This document shows, piece by piece, positions 26,500 to 32,820 of a DNA stretch of 64,000 nt. The position numbers were made by a program, and so were the translations under genes. This DNA comes from Nautilia sp. PV-1 (lineage in GTDB: Bacteria > Campylobacterota > Campylobacteria > Campylobacterales > Nautiliaceae). Each line of letters begins with the position of its first letter. Within the stretch, counting starts at the first letter, position 1. The notes under the pieces were generated by a model that was not told the DNA's origin, searched no databases, and saw only the letters and a program-made list of their open reading frames with translations. The stretch lies in the NCBI RefSeq assembly GCF_004006315.1, contig NZ_CP026530.1, positions 191,618-255,617 on the forward strand, in the 5' to 3' direction.

Positions 26500-28368
26500 A
26501 TGGGATTTGTTTCTTTAGAGGAAAAAGAAATAAATAACGAAACACTGCCGCAAGAAGTATCCAACAATGAAAATTTTCATCAAGAGTTTGAAATCATGGA
26601 AAGCGATTTGGAAAATTTGTCTGAAAAATTACATACAAAAACCGCTGAAGGTCTGGCTGCAATTGAAGAACTGAAAGGCACTATGGAACAGATAGCGGCG
26701 GCTGCCGAGGAAAGTGCCGGAGCCGCAGAGGAGACGTTAAGTGCTATTACGGAGATTAAGCAAAATTCCAAATATTTAGAGGTCGAAGTTCAAAATACGG
26801 TTGAAACGATACTGGATTTTAAAGATTTGCTTAACAGTTCGATAGATTCTTTTGAAGAAGCCAGCGAAAGCTTAAAAAACACTTCTCAAAAAGCTGAAGA
26901 AATTTCGTTAAAAGCCAAAAAACTTTTAGATGCCAGTAAACAGATAAACGATGCAGTAGAACTTATAACTAAATTATCCAAAAAAACGGGTCTTCTGGCA
27001 TTAAATGCGGCGATTGAAGCTGCACGCGCGGGGCAGAGCGGAAGAAGTTTTACCGTAATGGCGAGCGAAATCAGGGCAATGGCAAAAAAATCAAATGTAT
27101 ATGCCGAAAAAATCAGTATTCTTGTTAACGACATTCAGGAAAAAATACATAATGCAAATAACGATATGGGAAAGATTAAAGAAGATATAGAAAAATTTTC
27201 ACAAGAATCTTTAAAACTTGCCGCGGAAATGAGGGAAATCGGAAATATTATTGAAAAAATAGTGGCGGATGCCGAGAAACTTATTGAAAATATTAAATTA
27301 ACCGTCGACGAAATAGAAGATCTTCATCAGGCAAGCGAAACAATAGCCGCTGCGGCTGAAGAGAGCGCAAGCGCCGTCAGTGAAGTTACAAACACTATTG
27401 CTTCTCAGGTAAATGCTTTTAACGAGTCTCAAAAAGCAGCTGAAATCTTAAAGGAAATTTTAAAAAAAGACAATTTTCAAAACGAACTGGCGACTGCAAG
27501 CGAAGAACTCAGCTACAGTGTGGCACAGCTTGAAGATTCAATGAGAGAGATAGTCGAGGCTCTTTCCCAGATAGAGGAAGCTGCCGAAATTTCAAAAAAC
27601 GATGCCAATAAAGCACAGGATATTGCAGGTAACTGCGTAAATTATATAGCTAAAGCCAAAGACTTTATGGAAGAAATTTATAATGGCTTTTTGAGCATTA
27701 AAGAAAAATTTAACGATATATCCAAAACTTTGATCAGAATGAAGGATGAATCGGCCGAGAACATATTATCGTCAAACGAGCAAAAAGCCAAAATTAACGA
27801 AATCAAATCCAAAATCAGAAAACTTAATAATGCGATAAGAAAGATAGAACTTTCAATTGTACAGATAGGTGCCCTTTCCATCAACGGAGCCGTGGAAGCT
27901 GTAAGAATAGGCGAAGGCGGGGAAGGATTCAGCGAAGTCAGCCACGATATCAGAAATCTTGCCGATACTTCGGAAGAAAATCTGGATAAAGTAATAGATA
28001 TTATTGATGAAGTAAATGAGGAAAACGACAAAATACTTGTTGAAATTAACAATATATTTTTAATTCTTGAAAATGAAAGCAATAAACTTAAAGAAACTAC
28101 AAACGAATTCGACAACAGTCTTAATATGCTAGAAGGAGTTATGCACAAAACGGAAAAATTAAAAACCTCGATAGATGAAATGAACATTGCGCTCGAACAG
28201 ATTCAGCTTGCGGCCAAACAGACGGTGGAAGCTGCGGAAATATCGAAAAACAACGCAAGCGAATCCAAAGAGGCAGCGAATATTATTTTAAATATTTCAA
28301 AAGAAATGAGCGCGATTATAAATAAACTAAAAGAAATTTCATTAAATATGGTAAAGAGTGAGTTATGA
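26500..28368 (+). CDS. Soluble chemoreceptor with two tandem signalling hairpins
   Basis: A 622-residue cytoplasmic protein that is almost entirely coiled coil, with no transmembrane segment and no recognisable sensor domain. Residues 60-300 form a complete MCP hairpin: tip near 165-190 ([21 protein letters not shown]), flanked at about equal distance (roughly 100 residues) by identical methylation-site motifs AAAAEESAGA (66-75) and AAAAEESASA (283-292). Residues 330-605 repeat the design with a decayed tip (ALSINGAVEAVRIGEGGEGF, 458-477) and weaker flanking sites. It heads an operon with a triple-CheW protein, a helical-repeat protein, CheR and CheB, so it is probably the methylated scaffold of that system. 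Input signal unknown. Confidence 0.85.
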   Translation: MGFVSLEEKEINNETLPQEVSNNENFHQEFEIMESDLENLSEKLHTKTAEGLAAIEELKGTMEQIAAAAEESAGAAEETLSAITEIKQNSKYLEVEVQNTVETILDFKDLLNSSIDSFEEASESLKNTSQKAEEISLKAKKLLDASKQINDAVELITKLSKKTGLLALNAAIEAARAGQSGRSFTVMASEIRAMAKKSNVYAEKISILVNDIQEKIHNANNDMGKIKEDIEKFSQESLKLAAEMREIGNIIEKIVADAEKLIENIKLTVDEIEDLHQASETIAAAAEESASAVSEVTNTIASQVNAFNESQKAAEILKEILKKDNFQNELATASEELSYSVAQLEDSMREIVEALSQIEEAAEISKNDANKAQDIAGNCVNYIAKAKDFMEEIYNGFLSIKEKFNDISKTLIRMKDESAENILSSNEQKAKINEIKSKIRKLNNAIRKIELSIVQIGALSINGAVEAVRIGEGGEGFSEVSHDIRNLADTSEENLDKVIDIIDEVNEENDKILVEINNIFLILENESNKLKETTNEFDNSLNMLEGVMHKTEKLKTSIDEMNIALEQIQLAAKQTVEAAEISKNNASESKEAANIILNISKEMSAIINKLKEISLNMVKSEL

Positions 28369-29588
28369 AAGTAGCGGCACTTGAGTTTAGGGTTGCCGAT
28401 AAGTTTTTTGCCATTGAAATGAGCAGGGTTAAGCATTTTTTTGAAGTTGAAAATATAATACGGCTTGATTTTCTTCCTTCTTTTGTGGAGGGTATTGTAA
28501 ATTACAACAATTACGTATATCCATTGATTTCACTGAAAAAAGCGTGGCATATAGATGACGGAAAAAAAGAAGATACGGCTGTAGCCATTGTTTTTAACAA
28601 CAGGGAATATGCAATATTGATTGATGAAATAATTAAAATAGACGAATTGGATAAAAAAGAGAATTTTCTGGTTGAAGTGTTTGAAGAAAACGGAAAACTT
28701 ATAGGCAATTTAAATCTCGAATTTTTAGACGATTATAATATTCCCACTTTTAAAAACAGAACCGAAAACAAAGAACGAAAAAAAGATGTCAACAAAGAGA
28801 GTTTTCTGCTTTATGAATGCGGCGGGGAAATACTGGGGATTGATACTTCGGTAGTTAAAAAAATCGAAGACTATGAAAACGATAGCGTAGTTGTAAACGG
28901 TATGCTTGTAAAACTGGTTTCAGGGGAAAAAATATACAAAGAGTGTGAAAAAAGAAACATTCTAATTCTTGAAGATGAAAAAGTGCTTGCATGTCCCATT
29001 GGAAATATAATAGATGTGCATTTGATAGATAAAGATGAAATCACGCTGGTCCGTGATGATGTTTTTGAAAAATATTTTCTTTTTAAATCTCAGGAAGTTA
29101 AAATTTTTTCAAAAAATTATTTAAAAAAGCTGATTGACAAATTCGGAGCGGTTGTTAAAAAAGACAAAGTCAAAAAATTTGATGAAAAAATTGAAGTTTT
29201 ACTGCTTAATATCTGTGGAGAAAGATTTGCGATAAGAATGAGCAGTGTTGCCGATATCAGCGAATATAACGAGGCAAGTCTTAATTTTGCAAATGACAAT
29301 CCTCATGTAAAAGGTATAATTACCACAAAAGAAGGCGCAACTTTTATATTAAGTTTTGAAAAAGTTTTAAATAAAAAACCTGAAATAACGGACGATTCCA
29401 AAATTATAGTTATAAAAGACGAAAAACATTTAAAAGCCATTTTGGTAGACGGTATCGATGATATCATTTACGTAAAAAAAGAAAACATTCTTTTAAGCAA
29501 TGACAACGACGGTATTATCGGAGGAATGGTGCTTAAAGACAAAGAAATGATCCCTCTTATTAATATAAGCTGGCCTAAGGATCTCTAA
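28365..29588 (+). CDS. Triple CheW-domain coupling protein
   Basis: A 407-residue protein made of three CheW-like beta-barrel units. Unit 1 (about 3-135) is the most canonical, with FFAIEMSRVKHFFE and FVEGIVNYNNYVYPLISL. Unit 2 (about 145-255) is shortened. Unit 3 (about 275-407) has FAIRMSSVADISEY, HVKGIITTKEG and a closing KEMIPLINISW. CheW domains bridge receptors and the kinase CheA, so one protein with three could bind the double-hairpin receptor at several points. Its ATG overlaps the receptor stop (ATGA). No CheA kinase domain is present here or elsewhere in the window. Confidence 0.75.
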   Translation: MKVAALEFRVADKFFAIEMSRVKHFFEVENIIRLDFLPSFVEGIVNYNNYVYPLISLKKAWHIDDGKKEDTAVAIVFNNREYAILIDEIIKIDELDKKENFLVEVFEENGKLIGNLNLEFLDDYNIPTFKNRTENKERKKDVNKESFLLYECGGEILGIDTSVVKKIEDYENDSVVVNGMLVKLVSGEKIYKECEKRNILILEDEKVLACPIGNIIDVHLIDKDEITLVRDDVFEKYFLFKSQEVKIFSKNYLKKLIDKFGAVVKKDKVKKFDEKIEVLLLNICGERFAIRMSSVADISEYNEASLNFANDNPHVKGIITTKEGATFILSFEKVLNKKPEITDDSKIIVIKDEKHLKAILVDGIDDIIYVKKENILLSNDNDGIIGGMVLKDKEMIPLINISWPKDL

Positions 29589-30112
29589 TGTTTAAGGGTT
29601 TTGAAGAAGATAAAATATTCAGATTCAAAGAGTTTGACGAAGCAAGAATTTATATAGAAAACTTTAAAGACGACAAAGACACTTACGAAGCTGTCGATTA
29701 TATGATAAACCATAAAGAGTATTATTTTCTGCTTAAAAACGTGTTAAAGCAGATAGATACCAAAAAGAATATTTTGGCATATCTTTTTTTTAACCTTCCC
29801 TGTCTTAAAAGAGAGGAGGATTTGGATTTATTGATAAAAATAGTAAAAAGGTCTGACAGGATCTTAAAAAAAATAGTTATAGACTATATAAAAAGCTGTA
29901 ACAATGAAGAATTCGCAAAAAAAATGTATGAAAGGGGATTGAAAACCGAAGCGGTAGAAATTCTTAAGAAATTTCCCGGCTGTGTAAAATATTTAAAAGA
30001 AAAATTAAGCGGTGAACAGGATGAGGAGGTTATAAAAAAAGCCGTGGAGTTTTTTGAAATTTATGATGAGGAATATGCCAAAAAATTAAAGGAAAAACTT
30101 GGAAATAAGTGA
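29588..30112 (+). CDS. Helical-repeat (HEAT-like) protein of the chemosensory operon
   Basis: A 174-residue, all-helical, charged protein with pairs of amphipathic helices spaced about 30-35 residues (for example DLLIKIVKRSDRILKKIV and AVEILKKFPGCVKYLKEKL), suggestive of HEAT repeats. I do not recognise a specific family. It starts one base inside the stop of the triple-CheW gene, and cheR begins within its last codons, so it belongs to the operon and may be an adaptor. Function is unproven. Confidence 0.6.
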   Translation: MFKGFEEDKIFRFKEFDEARIYIENFKDDKDTYEAVDYMINHKEYYFLLKNVLKQIDTKKNILAYLFFNLPCLKREEDLDLLIKIVKRSDRILKKIVIDYIKSCNNEEFAKKMYERGLKTEAVEILKKFPGCVKYLKEKLSGEQDEEVIKKAVEFFEIYDEEYAKKLKEKLGNK

Positions 30113-30932
30113 TTATCAGTTAAAAAAATTGAGAAATTATCTTAATAATGAAATAGGCATATATGTTGACGACTCGAAAATGCAGACAATATATAAAAGA
30201 AAACTGCTGAAACTTTTAAAAGAGAAAGGTTATAGTGATTTCGAGGAGTTTTATAAAGACCTTGTATTAAAAAAGAGCTCTTTTTTAAAGCAGGATCTGA
30301 TTAATGTTTTTATGGTTAACGAAACTTATTTTTTTAGGGAAAAATATCAGTTTGATACGTTGGTAAAGCATGTCTTGCCGGAGCTGCATATAAAAAGACC
30401 GGCCAATGAGATAATCAATATATTATGCGCACCCGTTTCCAGCGGAGAGGAGCTTTATTCGATAGCGATTATGCTTATGGAAGAAGGAGAGCTTATTAAA
30501 AAAAGGGATTTTATGCTTTTAGGCATTGATGTCGATTCAGATGCGATAGCTAAAGCGAAAGCAGGAATATATTCAGCCAGAAGCGTGCATAAACTTCCTC
30601 CGGAACTTATAGAAAAATATTTTGTAAAAACAGGGAATCTTTATAAGGTGAAAGATTTTCTAAAAAAAGCGGTTAATTTCAAAATAGTTAACATAATGGA
30701 TAAATATCAAATGAAAAAACTAGGAATGTTTGATGTGATTTTCAGCAGGAATATGCTTATATATTTTGATGAAAAATCAAAAAGAGAAGTTTTGGCCACA
30801 TTTTACAATATATTAAAAAACGACGGATATCTTTTTTTAGGACACGCGGAAAGAGTGCCAAGTGATATAGTTTTGTTTAAAAGTATGAAGATAGGAGACA
30901 GTTTTGTTTACAAAAAAACTGCTGATAGTTAG
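30099..30932 (+). CDS. cheR: Chemotaxis protein methyltransferase CheR
   Basis: A 277-residue SAM-dependent enzyme that methylates receptor glutamates. The N-terminal helical domain is followed by VNETYFFRE, the SAM loop ILCAPVSSGEELYSIA (usually SAGCSTGEEPYS) and FDVIFSRNMLIYFD. All core motifs are present, but the SAM loop has drifted from consensus. The start is TTG 30099 with AAAGG six bases upstream, overlapping the previous gene by 14 bases. It ends overlapping cheB by 29 bases. The two AAAAEESA motifs of the receptor gene in the same operon are its obvious substrates. Confidence 0.88.
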   Translation: MEISDYQLKKLRNYLNNEIGIYVDDSKMQTIYKRKLLKLLKEKGYSDFEEFYKDLVLKKSSFLKQDLINVFMVNETYFFREKYQFDTLVKHVLPELHIKRPANEIINILCAPVSSGEELYSIAIMLMEEGELIKKRDFMLLGIDVDSDAIAKAKAGIYSARSVHKLPPELIEKYFVKTGNLYKVKDFLKKAVNFKIVNIMDKYQMKKLGMFDVIFSRNMLIYFDEKSKREVLATFYNILKNDGYLFLGHAERVPSDIVLFKSMKIGDSFVYKKTADS

Positions 30933-31809
30933 TCCTTCCGCCGTTTTCAGGCTTACTCTTAAAAAGTTTTTGGAAAACAGGTTTGAGGTTGATACAAATA
31001 AAAACAAAGAAATAGATTTAAAAAAATATGATTTAATTATTTTTGATAAAGACTACGGGGATGAATATAAAAAATTTTTAAATAAAGTTGTGCTTATAGG
31101 CGGAGAATGCGAAGACTGTATTGAAAAACCCGATTTTATATCAGAAGAGTTTAAACAGAATCTTTTAAATTTAATAGAAAAAAAACTTGGTATCAGACAG
31201 AAAAGAAAAAAAATACCTGAAATAATAAAAGGGGCTGAAAAATATGTGCTTATAGGTTCTTCAACGGGAGGTCCCGGGCTTATTGAGACAATAGCAAGGT
31301 CTTTGCCTGAGGATTATCCTTATCCGGTGTGCGTGGTTCAGCATATGCCCGCTAATTTTACGTCTAAGTTTGCTTCAAGGTTGAATTCGGTGTCAAAATT
31401 AAACGTTGTCGAATCGGATAATACCCAGCCGGTTGTAAAAGGGTATTTTATTATCGCCAAAGGAGGATGGCATTTGCATTTCAGAAATAAAGACGGGATA
31501 GTTTACTGCAAACATGCCCCTAATTCCAAAAACAAATTTTTTGTGCCAAGTGTAGATGAAATGTTTTTTTCCGCTCTTGAAGTAATGAATCCGAAAGATA
31601 TAATGGCAGTAGTGCTGACAGGCATAGGCGATGACGGTGCGGACGGGCTAGTCGCTTTAAAAAAAGCGGGAGCTTATACTATAGCCGAATCGGAAAAAAC
31701 GGCGGCGGTATACGGAATGCCGAAAGCCGCAAAAGAAAGAGGCGGAGCCTGTAAAATATTGGATTTTCCAGATATTGTAAAAGAGATATTAAAATTTGGA
31801 GAACATTAA
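30904..31809 (+). CDS. cheB: Chemotaxis methylesterase CheB with decayed receiver domain
   Basis: A 301-residue protein. The C-terminal 185 residues are a normal CheB esterase with the Ser-His-Asp triad visible in IGSSTGGPG, VVQHMPANF and LTGIGDDGADG. The N-terminal 100 residues keep the alpha/beta rhythm of a receiver domain but lack the acidic pair (IVSPSAVFR instead of DDS). A possible acceptor aspartate remains in LIIFDKDYGD, and the conserved lysine region is replaced by VVLIGGECEDC. Phosphorylation control is therefore probably lost or changed. TTG start at 30904 within cheR. The TAA interlocks with the stop of the convergent corA. Confidence 0.85.
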   Translation: MFTKKLLIVSPSAVFRLTLKKFLENRFEVDTNKNKEIDLKKYDLIIFDKDYGDEYKKFLNKVVLIGGECEDCIEKPDFISEEFKQNLLNLIEKKLGIRQKRKKIPEIIKGAEKYVLIGSSTGGPGLIETIARSLPEDYPYPVCVVQHMPANFTSKFASRLNSVSKLNVVESDNTQPVVKGYFIIAKGGWHLHFRNKDGIVYCKHAPNSKNKFFVPSVDEMFFSALEVMNPKDIMAVVLTGIGDDGADGLVALKKAGAYTIAESEKTAAVYGMPKAAKERGGACKILDFPDIVKEILKFGEH

Positions 31810-32738
31810 ATCCATTTTTTCTTTTTAAGCCACCAGTATATGCTTCCGGCTATTGTGATATTTACGATCCACGTCATCAGATACCCGTATTTCCAGTGCA
31901 GTTCCGGCATATATTCAAAGTTCATTCCGTAATTTCCAACCACGAACGTCAAAGGAAGGAAAATAAGTGAAATTGCGGCTAGGCGCTGCATTGCTTTATT
32001 CATTTTAGTAGACAGAATACCCATATGCAGGTTTAGCAAATAACCTGTTCTGTCAAGAAGGGTTTTTGATTCGTCGATCAGATATTTAAGGTGTTCGTTT
32101 AAGTCGATGAATTCGTATTTCAGATCTTCTTTTATATTCGAATCGAATCTGTGGTACATTCTGTTTAAAACGTCTTTCTCGTGTATAGAGACTTTGGTGA
32201 TTCTGTTTAAAGTACGTCTGGCATAGTATATGTCTTTTTGAAGTTCGTCCTCTTCTATGTTTTCGTGGAAAATAGAATCTTCCAAGTTTTCCAGGGCTTC
32301 GTCTATTACGTCAATTATCAAAATTGTATTGTCAACTAGAATATCGGCAATCTGGTATAAAAGATATTCGAAATTTTTATACTTATGTCTTCTTTTGGCG
32401 AATTTTTTAGCCAGTTCTACTATAATGTCTCTTTCTTCGGCTAAAATGAAAAGTTTGTTTTCGGTAATAATAAATACTACGTTTGAATCGTCATAAAGGA
32501 GGTTTTCCTCTTCGTCGAATTTGATGTATTTTAATACAAGAAATTTAAACTCATCTGCCTCTTCGTATGTAATAGACTGGTCTTCGCTCTGAATATCTTC
32601 TATAAAACTTTCCGGAAACGAATGGGTTTTAAGCCAGTTGATAATATCTTTGTTGTCAACCGTTGAAAAAATAATCTGTCTGTCGTTGTTGATAATTATT
32701 TTTTCAGTCTGCTGGAGTTTGTCGGTGAAGATAAACAT
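31806..32738 (-). CDS. corA: CorA-family magnesium transporter
   Basis: A 310-residue CorA-type channel for Mg2+ (and Co2+/Ni2+ in some members). A large acidic cytosolic domain with long helices is followed by two C-terminal membrane helices. The first ends in the defining motif YGMNFEYMPE, and the loop keeps the MPEL acids. The tail is basic (WWLKKKKWI). Length is normal. Its ribosome site (AAAGGAGGTG) lies in a palindrome, and its leader can form a 12-bp hairpin, described separately. Stop codon shares 4 bases with cheB. Confidence 0.92.
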   Translation of the reverse strand: MFIFTDKLQQTEKIIINNDRQIIFSTVDNKDIINWLKTHSFPESFIEDIQSEDQSITYEEADEFKFLVLKYIKFDEEENLLYDDSNVVFIITENKLFILAEERDIIVELAKKFAKRRHKYKNFEYLLYQIADILVDNTILIIDVIDEALENLEDSIFHENIEEDELQKDIYYARRTLNRITKVSIHEKDVLNRMYHRFDSNIKEDLKYEFIDLNEHLKYLIDESKTLLDRTGYLLNLHMGILSTKMNKAMQRLAAISLIFLPLTFVVGNYGMNFEYMPELHWKYGYLMTWIVNITIAGSIYWWLKKKKWI

Positions 32739-32740
32739 AG

Positions 32741-32820
32741 CGCACCTCCTTTAGGAGGTTGCAGAGGAGATATAATTTGTGTTACATCGCCTCTACAACC
32801 TGAAATGTTTTGTAATTATA
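32741..32820 (-). promoter_or_regulatory. corA leader: promoter, hairpin and SD-sequestering stem
   Basis: On the minus strand TATAAT (32820-32815) is followed about 14 bases later by AGGTTGTAGAGG (32801-32790), which pairs over 12 positions (one U-G) with CCTCTGCAACCT (32767-32756) around a 22-base loop. Overlapping the 3' arm, ACCTCC-TAAA-GGAGGT (32759-32744) would bury the corA Shine-Dalgarno. The two stems share four bases, so full pairing of one weakens the other. This looks like a translational switch, and control by Mg2+ is inference. Confidence 0.55.

Follow-up and report, generated by a model that had tools for sequence, protein, structure and literature searches.

A conserved corA leader with two competing stems in Nautiliaceae, probably a newly recognised on/off switch

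The corA locus of Nautilia sp. PV-1

The window, by which we mean the whole stretch of 64,000 nucleotides analysed from contig NZ_CP026530.1, carries on its minus strand a gene for a CorA-type transporter, preceded by a leader of approximately 66–75 nt. The elements of the locus, with the basis on which they were placed, are as follows.

32815..32820, minus strand: -10 box TATAAT of the predicted corA promoter (sequence; start expected near 32808)
32790..32801, minus strand: 5' arm of stem P1, AGGTTGTAGAGG (RNA AGGUUGUAGAGG; sequence and relatives' alignment)
32801-32798, minus strand: AGGU of the P1 5' arm, competitor of the Shine-Dalgarno sequence for the shared strand
32768..32789, minus strand: apical extension and loop of P1, 22 nt (relatives' alignment)
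32756..32767, minus strand: 3' arm of P1, CCTCTGCAACCT (RNA CCUCUGCAACCU; sequence and relatives' alignment)
32754..32759, minus strand: anti-Shine-Dalgarno ACCTCC, of which ACCT (32759-32756) is used by both P1 and P2
32753-32750, minus strand: loop of stem P2, TAAA
32744..32749, minus strand: Shine-Dalgarno GGAGGT, the 3' strand of P2, followed by a spacer and the ATG at 32738
31806..32738, minus strand: corA, 310 aa, CorA-type Mg2+/Co2+ transporter with a YGMNF motif (Pfam PF01544, 182.9 bits)

A chemotaxis cluster (MCP-like, CheW-like, CheR-like and CheB; 26500-31809) adjoins corA tail to tail; CheB alone is confirmed by Pfam, the other members being read from sequence.

P1 is formed by 12 bp between the two arms, one U-G wobble among them, and P2 by ACCUCC paired with GGAGGU, so that the four bases ACCU are common to both. 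A direct reading of the minus strand confirmed the description and the coordinates given for this leader by the first-pass annotation. Its proposals that the stems are mutually exclusive and that the corA Shine-Dalgarno is buried also hold, as P1 and P2 compete for ACCU, both pairings are kept in all 18 relatives and GGAGGU is paired with ACCUCC in P2. The 12-bp stem had furthermore been placed at the very 5' end of the transcript; it does lie near this end, but the predicted start at about 32808 leaves approximately 7 unpaired nucleotides in front of it.

Campylobacterota use -10-only sigma-70 promoters. The distance from the end of the -10 box to AGG is 7 nt in seven species, 11–16 nt in ten and 47 nt in the remaining one (L015). 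Because of this position of the -10 box, 17 of the 18 leaders have their predicted 5' end approximately 1–10 nt before P1, which places a hairpin within a few nucleotides of the transcript terminus as deduced from the predicted start site. A transcription start downstream of the first arm, which the first-pass annotation had named as incompatible with its proposal, is not what the promoters indicate, since the predicted start lies upstream of this arm in 18/18 leaders and closely so in 17. We rejected a second start within the loop: a TATAAT occurs there in L006, L009, L013, L015 and L017, without being conserved in the remaining 13.

The structure of the corA leader is beyond chance. A 91-nt segment folds with −32.4 kcal/mol, compared with −15.8 ± 2.8 for dinucleotide shuffles (z −5.9, 0/200), and the 69-nt segment that ends at the corA start codon is by a wide margin the lowest in energy among 54 window genes (−28.1, the next being −16.1). 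GGAGG precedes just three of these 54 genes. When P1 was retained and the tail was shuffled around GGAGG, 0.4–1% of the random tails matched the observed pairing between the ribosome site and the anti-Shine-Dalgarno.

Conservation and covariation of the leader

The CorA search covered 60 relatives and then 21 Nautiliaceae genomes, the copies named here coming mostly from metagenome-assembled genomes of this family. Both arms and the anti-Shine-Dalgarno are present in all 18 readable Nautiliaceae corA leaders, and a covariance model detects the element in 19 of the 21 genomes, as a single copy each and always before corA; the nineteenth copy (L134) lies at a contig edge, with its flank running into the corA start. 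Weak opposite-strand matches of the model correspond to the element's own inverted repeat read from the complementary strand. Two genomes are exceptions: in G006, filed in Nautiliaceae, CorA (L024) is just 56% identical and such a leader is absent, and from the assembly of G017 this corA is missing. G006 is either a basal genus or the holder of a separate corA lineage.

The covariance model found no convincing copy outside Nautiliaceae in a sample of 397 genomes of the phylum. The best match outside the family (L160, E 5.5e-4, in 1/397 genomes) does not precede corA; it falls within a coding region or at its end and was set aside as chance. The corA leaders of other families (L019-L029) are mostly without unusual structure and none is of this type; two of them (L019, z −3.4; L028, z −2.2) are somewhat more stable than their shuffles, in folds unlike that of the Nautiliaceae leader.

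Two further loci were observed during these comparisons. L016 (1501-2433 plus upstream), in a genome of another family (f6, a Campylobacteraceae metagenome bin), encodes a CorA 76% identical to that of the window and is preceded by an unrelated inverted repeat, AAGCTT..GAATTTGC / GC.AAATTCAAGCTT, with an energy that is not significant (z −0.9); this points either to transfer or to misbinning, with the leader replaced or never gained. At L007/L035 (G005:C15:10908-11027), a short second frame lies directly 3' of corA with a 70% match to the last 40 residues of CorA, and is a corA remnant or partial duplicate.

The 12-mer of the arms has exactly two occurrences in the genome of the window, both being these arms. 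Identity between genera amounts to 90% and 89% for the arms, compared with 61% for the apical helix and 46% for four-fold degenerate corA sites, and the conserved block belongs to corA, because the upstream sequences differ between genera. The apical part of P1 varies in sequence and in length (21–41 nt between the arms across relatives) with its pairing retained. The C following ACCU is invariant in 18/18 leaders although it is without a partner in P1. Part of the arm conservation results simply from the AGG/CCU/AGG complementarity to the ribosome site.

Across 18 pairs and 18 leaders, 91.7% of the P1 cells are paired, compared with 35–48% in slid versions. Double-sided changes occur at six pairs, adding up to 20 such cells versus a shuffled mean of 5.6, and the covariation score of P1 is 0.206 versus 0.071 for shuffles (0/500). 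We give more weight to the slid control and to the tree because the covariation shuffles ignore kinship. Eight of the 18 P1 pairs are invariant; the base of P1 retains 4/4 pairs in 17 leaders and 3/4 in one, and the P2 core 5/5 pairs in 17 leaders and 4/5 in one. Conservation of the stems in relatives, the absence of which would have spoken against the first-pass annotation, is therefore observed in 18/18 leaders and is accompanied by covariation. An A-C mismatch in P1 (columns 10 and 56 of alignment A1) is present in 13/18 leaders, from genera g2 and g4, the other five having A-U; this mismatch and a conserved U-G pair are the chief departures from canonical pairing in the stem.

The shared strand itself has changed. 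Its base A is replaced by G in L006, L013 and L015, and the 5' partner U4 is replaced by C in all three. In L013 and L015, which represent one genus, the Shine-Dalgarno partner is likewise changed from U to C, amounting to a joint change on three strands; L006 retains a G-U pair with the Shine-Dalgarno strand after the A-to-G replacement. The CorA tree, in which the outgroup L022 was evidently mistranslated and occupies a false long branch, was used solely for placing L006 and L009 relative to L013 and L015; it separates L006 from the L013/L015 clade and identifies L009 as the sister of L006. L009 has C4 but still A at the shared base and is an intermediate. Compensatory events that arose independently are few; the shared base accounts for about two.

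A proposed strand-exchange switch and its rivals

The leader combines two mutually exclusive conserved pairings, one of which conceals the ribosome site. With this conserved structure well supported, we consider it fairly probable that the Nautiliaceae corA leader acts in cis as a small RNA switch, with strand exchange as its means of controlling translation. In the ON fold, ACCU would pair with the 5'-terminal AGGU, leaving P1 fully closed and the Shine-Dalgarno free. In the OFF fold, ACCUCC would pair with the Shine-Dalgarno GGAGGU, forming P2 and concealing the ribosome site, so that four base pairs would be exchanged between the two states.

Fold energies were computed with ViennaRNA, which ignores coaxial stacking and Mg2+. 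With each fold forced, the OFF minus ON difference ranges from −4.2 to +2.5 kcal/mol over all 18 leaders, and both forms are predicted to be approximately 20–70% populated in 14 of them. The predicted exceptions are L006 (almost wholly ON), L009 (almost wholly OFF), and L003 and L013 (mostly ON); the extremes calculated for L006 and L009 do not fit a set-point common to all leaders. Stacking P1 coaxially on P2 should shift the balance further to OFF. In silico deletion or alteration of the first AGGU lowers the predicted Shine-Dalgarno accessibility from 0.24 to 0.00–0.01 at every temperature tested. The computations establish the two pairings and show them to be conserved, covarying, nearly balanced and restricted to corA. 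The balance is likely regulated in the cell. Only four base pairs move between folds of near-equal energy, and a modest influence can shift the equilibrium. As the OFF fold would leave the 5' end single-stranded and open to RppH and RNase J, silencing may be coupled to decay.

The conserved P1 sequence (GUAGAG...CUGCA) is probably the site of action of a factor, either a protein or a metal ion; its conservation exceeds the needs of pairing. Judging from the gene, intracellular Mg2+ feedback, direct or indirect, is the most natural guess for the signal and a plausible one, which has the right sign because the OFF fold has more base pairs. That the leader is itself a minimal sensor of Mg2+ (or divalent metal), with no separate aptamer, we regard as rather unlikely. 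In such a sensor, Mg2+ bound at the P1 helix or at the three-strand junction would favour the OFF fold, which would be more fully paired and coaxially stackable, and rising Mg2+ would conceal the corA ribosome site and expose the 5' end to decay. No aptamer-like conserved loops were seen across the leaders, only the helix sequence being conserved, and an aptamer-free exchange of four base pairs could settle passively into equilibrium and yield only a constant expression level.

Such constitutive tuning would require no signal: the 5'-terminal hairpin would merely shield the mRNA from RppH and RNase J, and the P2/P1 balance would fix a low translation of the membrane protein. In most species 1–10 nt separate the hairpin from the predicted 5' end, RNase J and RppH, enzymes reading a free 5' end, are encoded in the genome, and the vacA mRNA of Helicobacter pylori, a member of this phylum, has its half-life extended by a 5'-terminal stem-loop via structure rather than sequence (PMC4843948). 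A stabilising hairpin, however, needs no sequence conservation, whereas between genera the P1 arms share approximately 90% identity, a value greatly exceeding that of four-fold sites, and the apical helix drifts; nor does it need a competing anti-Shine-Dalgarno, which is yet kept in 18/18 leaders with the invariant C after ACCU. We therefore find pure tuning doubtful. Control by an RNA-binding protein that tips the folds at the P1 helix or at the GGA-containing ribosome site (CsrA, for example) is a real possibility, though short of probable, and overlaps with our best explanation: the switch would be retained, its signal being carried by a protein. It agrees with the conservation of P1 beyond pairing, as expressed in its invariant pairs, and with the presence of csrA in the genome; no candidate protein links to the sequence, however, and a GGA within the loop, which CsrA prefers, is confined to the genus that L013 and L015 represent.

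The inverted repeat might alternatively be a DNA operator, with a repressor binding across the transcription start, as the perfect 12-mers, found twice in the genome and solely as these arms, lie just downstream of the -10 box. We consider this very improbable: the spacing of the arms (21–41 nt) is without helical phasing, the intervening sequence stays paired via compensatory changes, the arms differ systematically in a U-G-compatible manner, the 5' arm having T where the 3' half-site has C in 17/18 leaders, and the conserved block extends into the anti-Shine-Dalgarno. Location of the Shine-Dalgarno within a hairpin would also fit an RNA thermometer that opens the ribosome site on heating in these warm-vent bacteria. 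The calculations speak against it, the predicted Shine-Dalgarno accessibility of the intact leader remaining flat (0.22–0.24) from 37 to 65 °C, and we rejected this hardly credible reading.

Significance and relation to known regulatory RNAs

Our literature search found no description of the corA leader of the Nautiliaceae, which are deep-sea vent bacteria. The leader is probably a newly recognised on/off switch and, as it appears, a conserved cis-regulatory RNA that had not been described, from a phylum whose known riboswitches are very few; in the C. jejuni transcriptome, the TPP riboswitch was the sole riboswitch found among 5' UTRs (PMC3847290). A direct test is made easy by the gene that follows, the subject being an RNA of approximately 70 nt that trades four base pairs between two folds ahead of a Mg2+ transporter. 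Should the leader switch without an aptamer, it would show how little RNA feedback control needs, and should the 5' end matter, one helix would link ribosome access to mRNA decay. If the leader proved to sense Mg2+ itself, it would represent a metal-responsive RNA of a new class, unusual in its small size.

At the gathering score, no Rfam 15 family matches the leader of the window or the 18 relatives, the sole match being a tRNA in L003, and a search of the leader at E 10 returned nothing related, only weak matches far under their cut-offs. Like the M-box (ykoK) Mg2+ riboswitch, the Nautiliaceae element is a cis leader of a Mg2+ transport gene with alternative folds, but the M-box model comprises 169 positions whereas the leader spans approximately 66 nt without an aptamer architecture. 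The M-box covariance model (RF00380) matched neither the window, the leader (even at E 10), the 18 relatives nor the whole genome, with positive controls matched; together with the far shorter leader, this bears out the earlier view that the two are unalike.

The gammaproteobacterial corA motif, confined to Gammaproteobacteria, also places two alternative structures before corA, and the E. coli leader responds to intracellular Mg2+, with ON and OFF mutants, via corL translation and Rho-dependent termination (PMC6429828, PMC11552253). The Nautiliaceae leader differs in that the ribosome site itself is paired and no upstream reading frame is conserved: none of at least three codons is common to the 18 leaders, and that of the window has only ATG-TAA. 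With the vacA-type stabilising stem-loop it shares a hairpin a few nucleotides from the 5' end, in a phylum with RNase J and RppH action (PMC4843948), but its hairpin is conserved in sequence and competes with a second one that conceals the Shine-Dalgarno.

We would place the Nautiliaceae leader among translational RNA switches, in no named family. Its three-strand logic with a shared middle strand is that of the expression platforms of translational riboswitches (Shine-Dalgarno, anti-Shine-Dalgarno and anti-anti-Shine-Dalgarno), from which it differs in dispensing with a separate ligand-binding domain and in using the transcript's own 5' end as the anti-anti strand.
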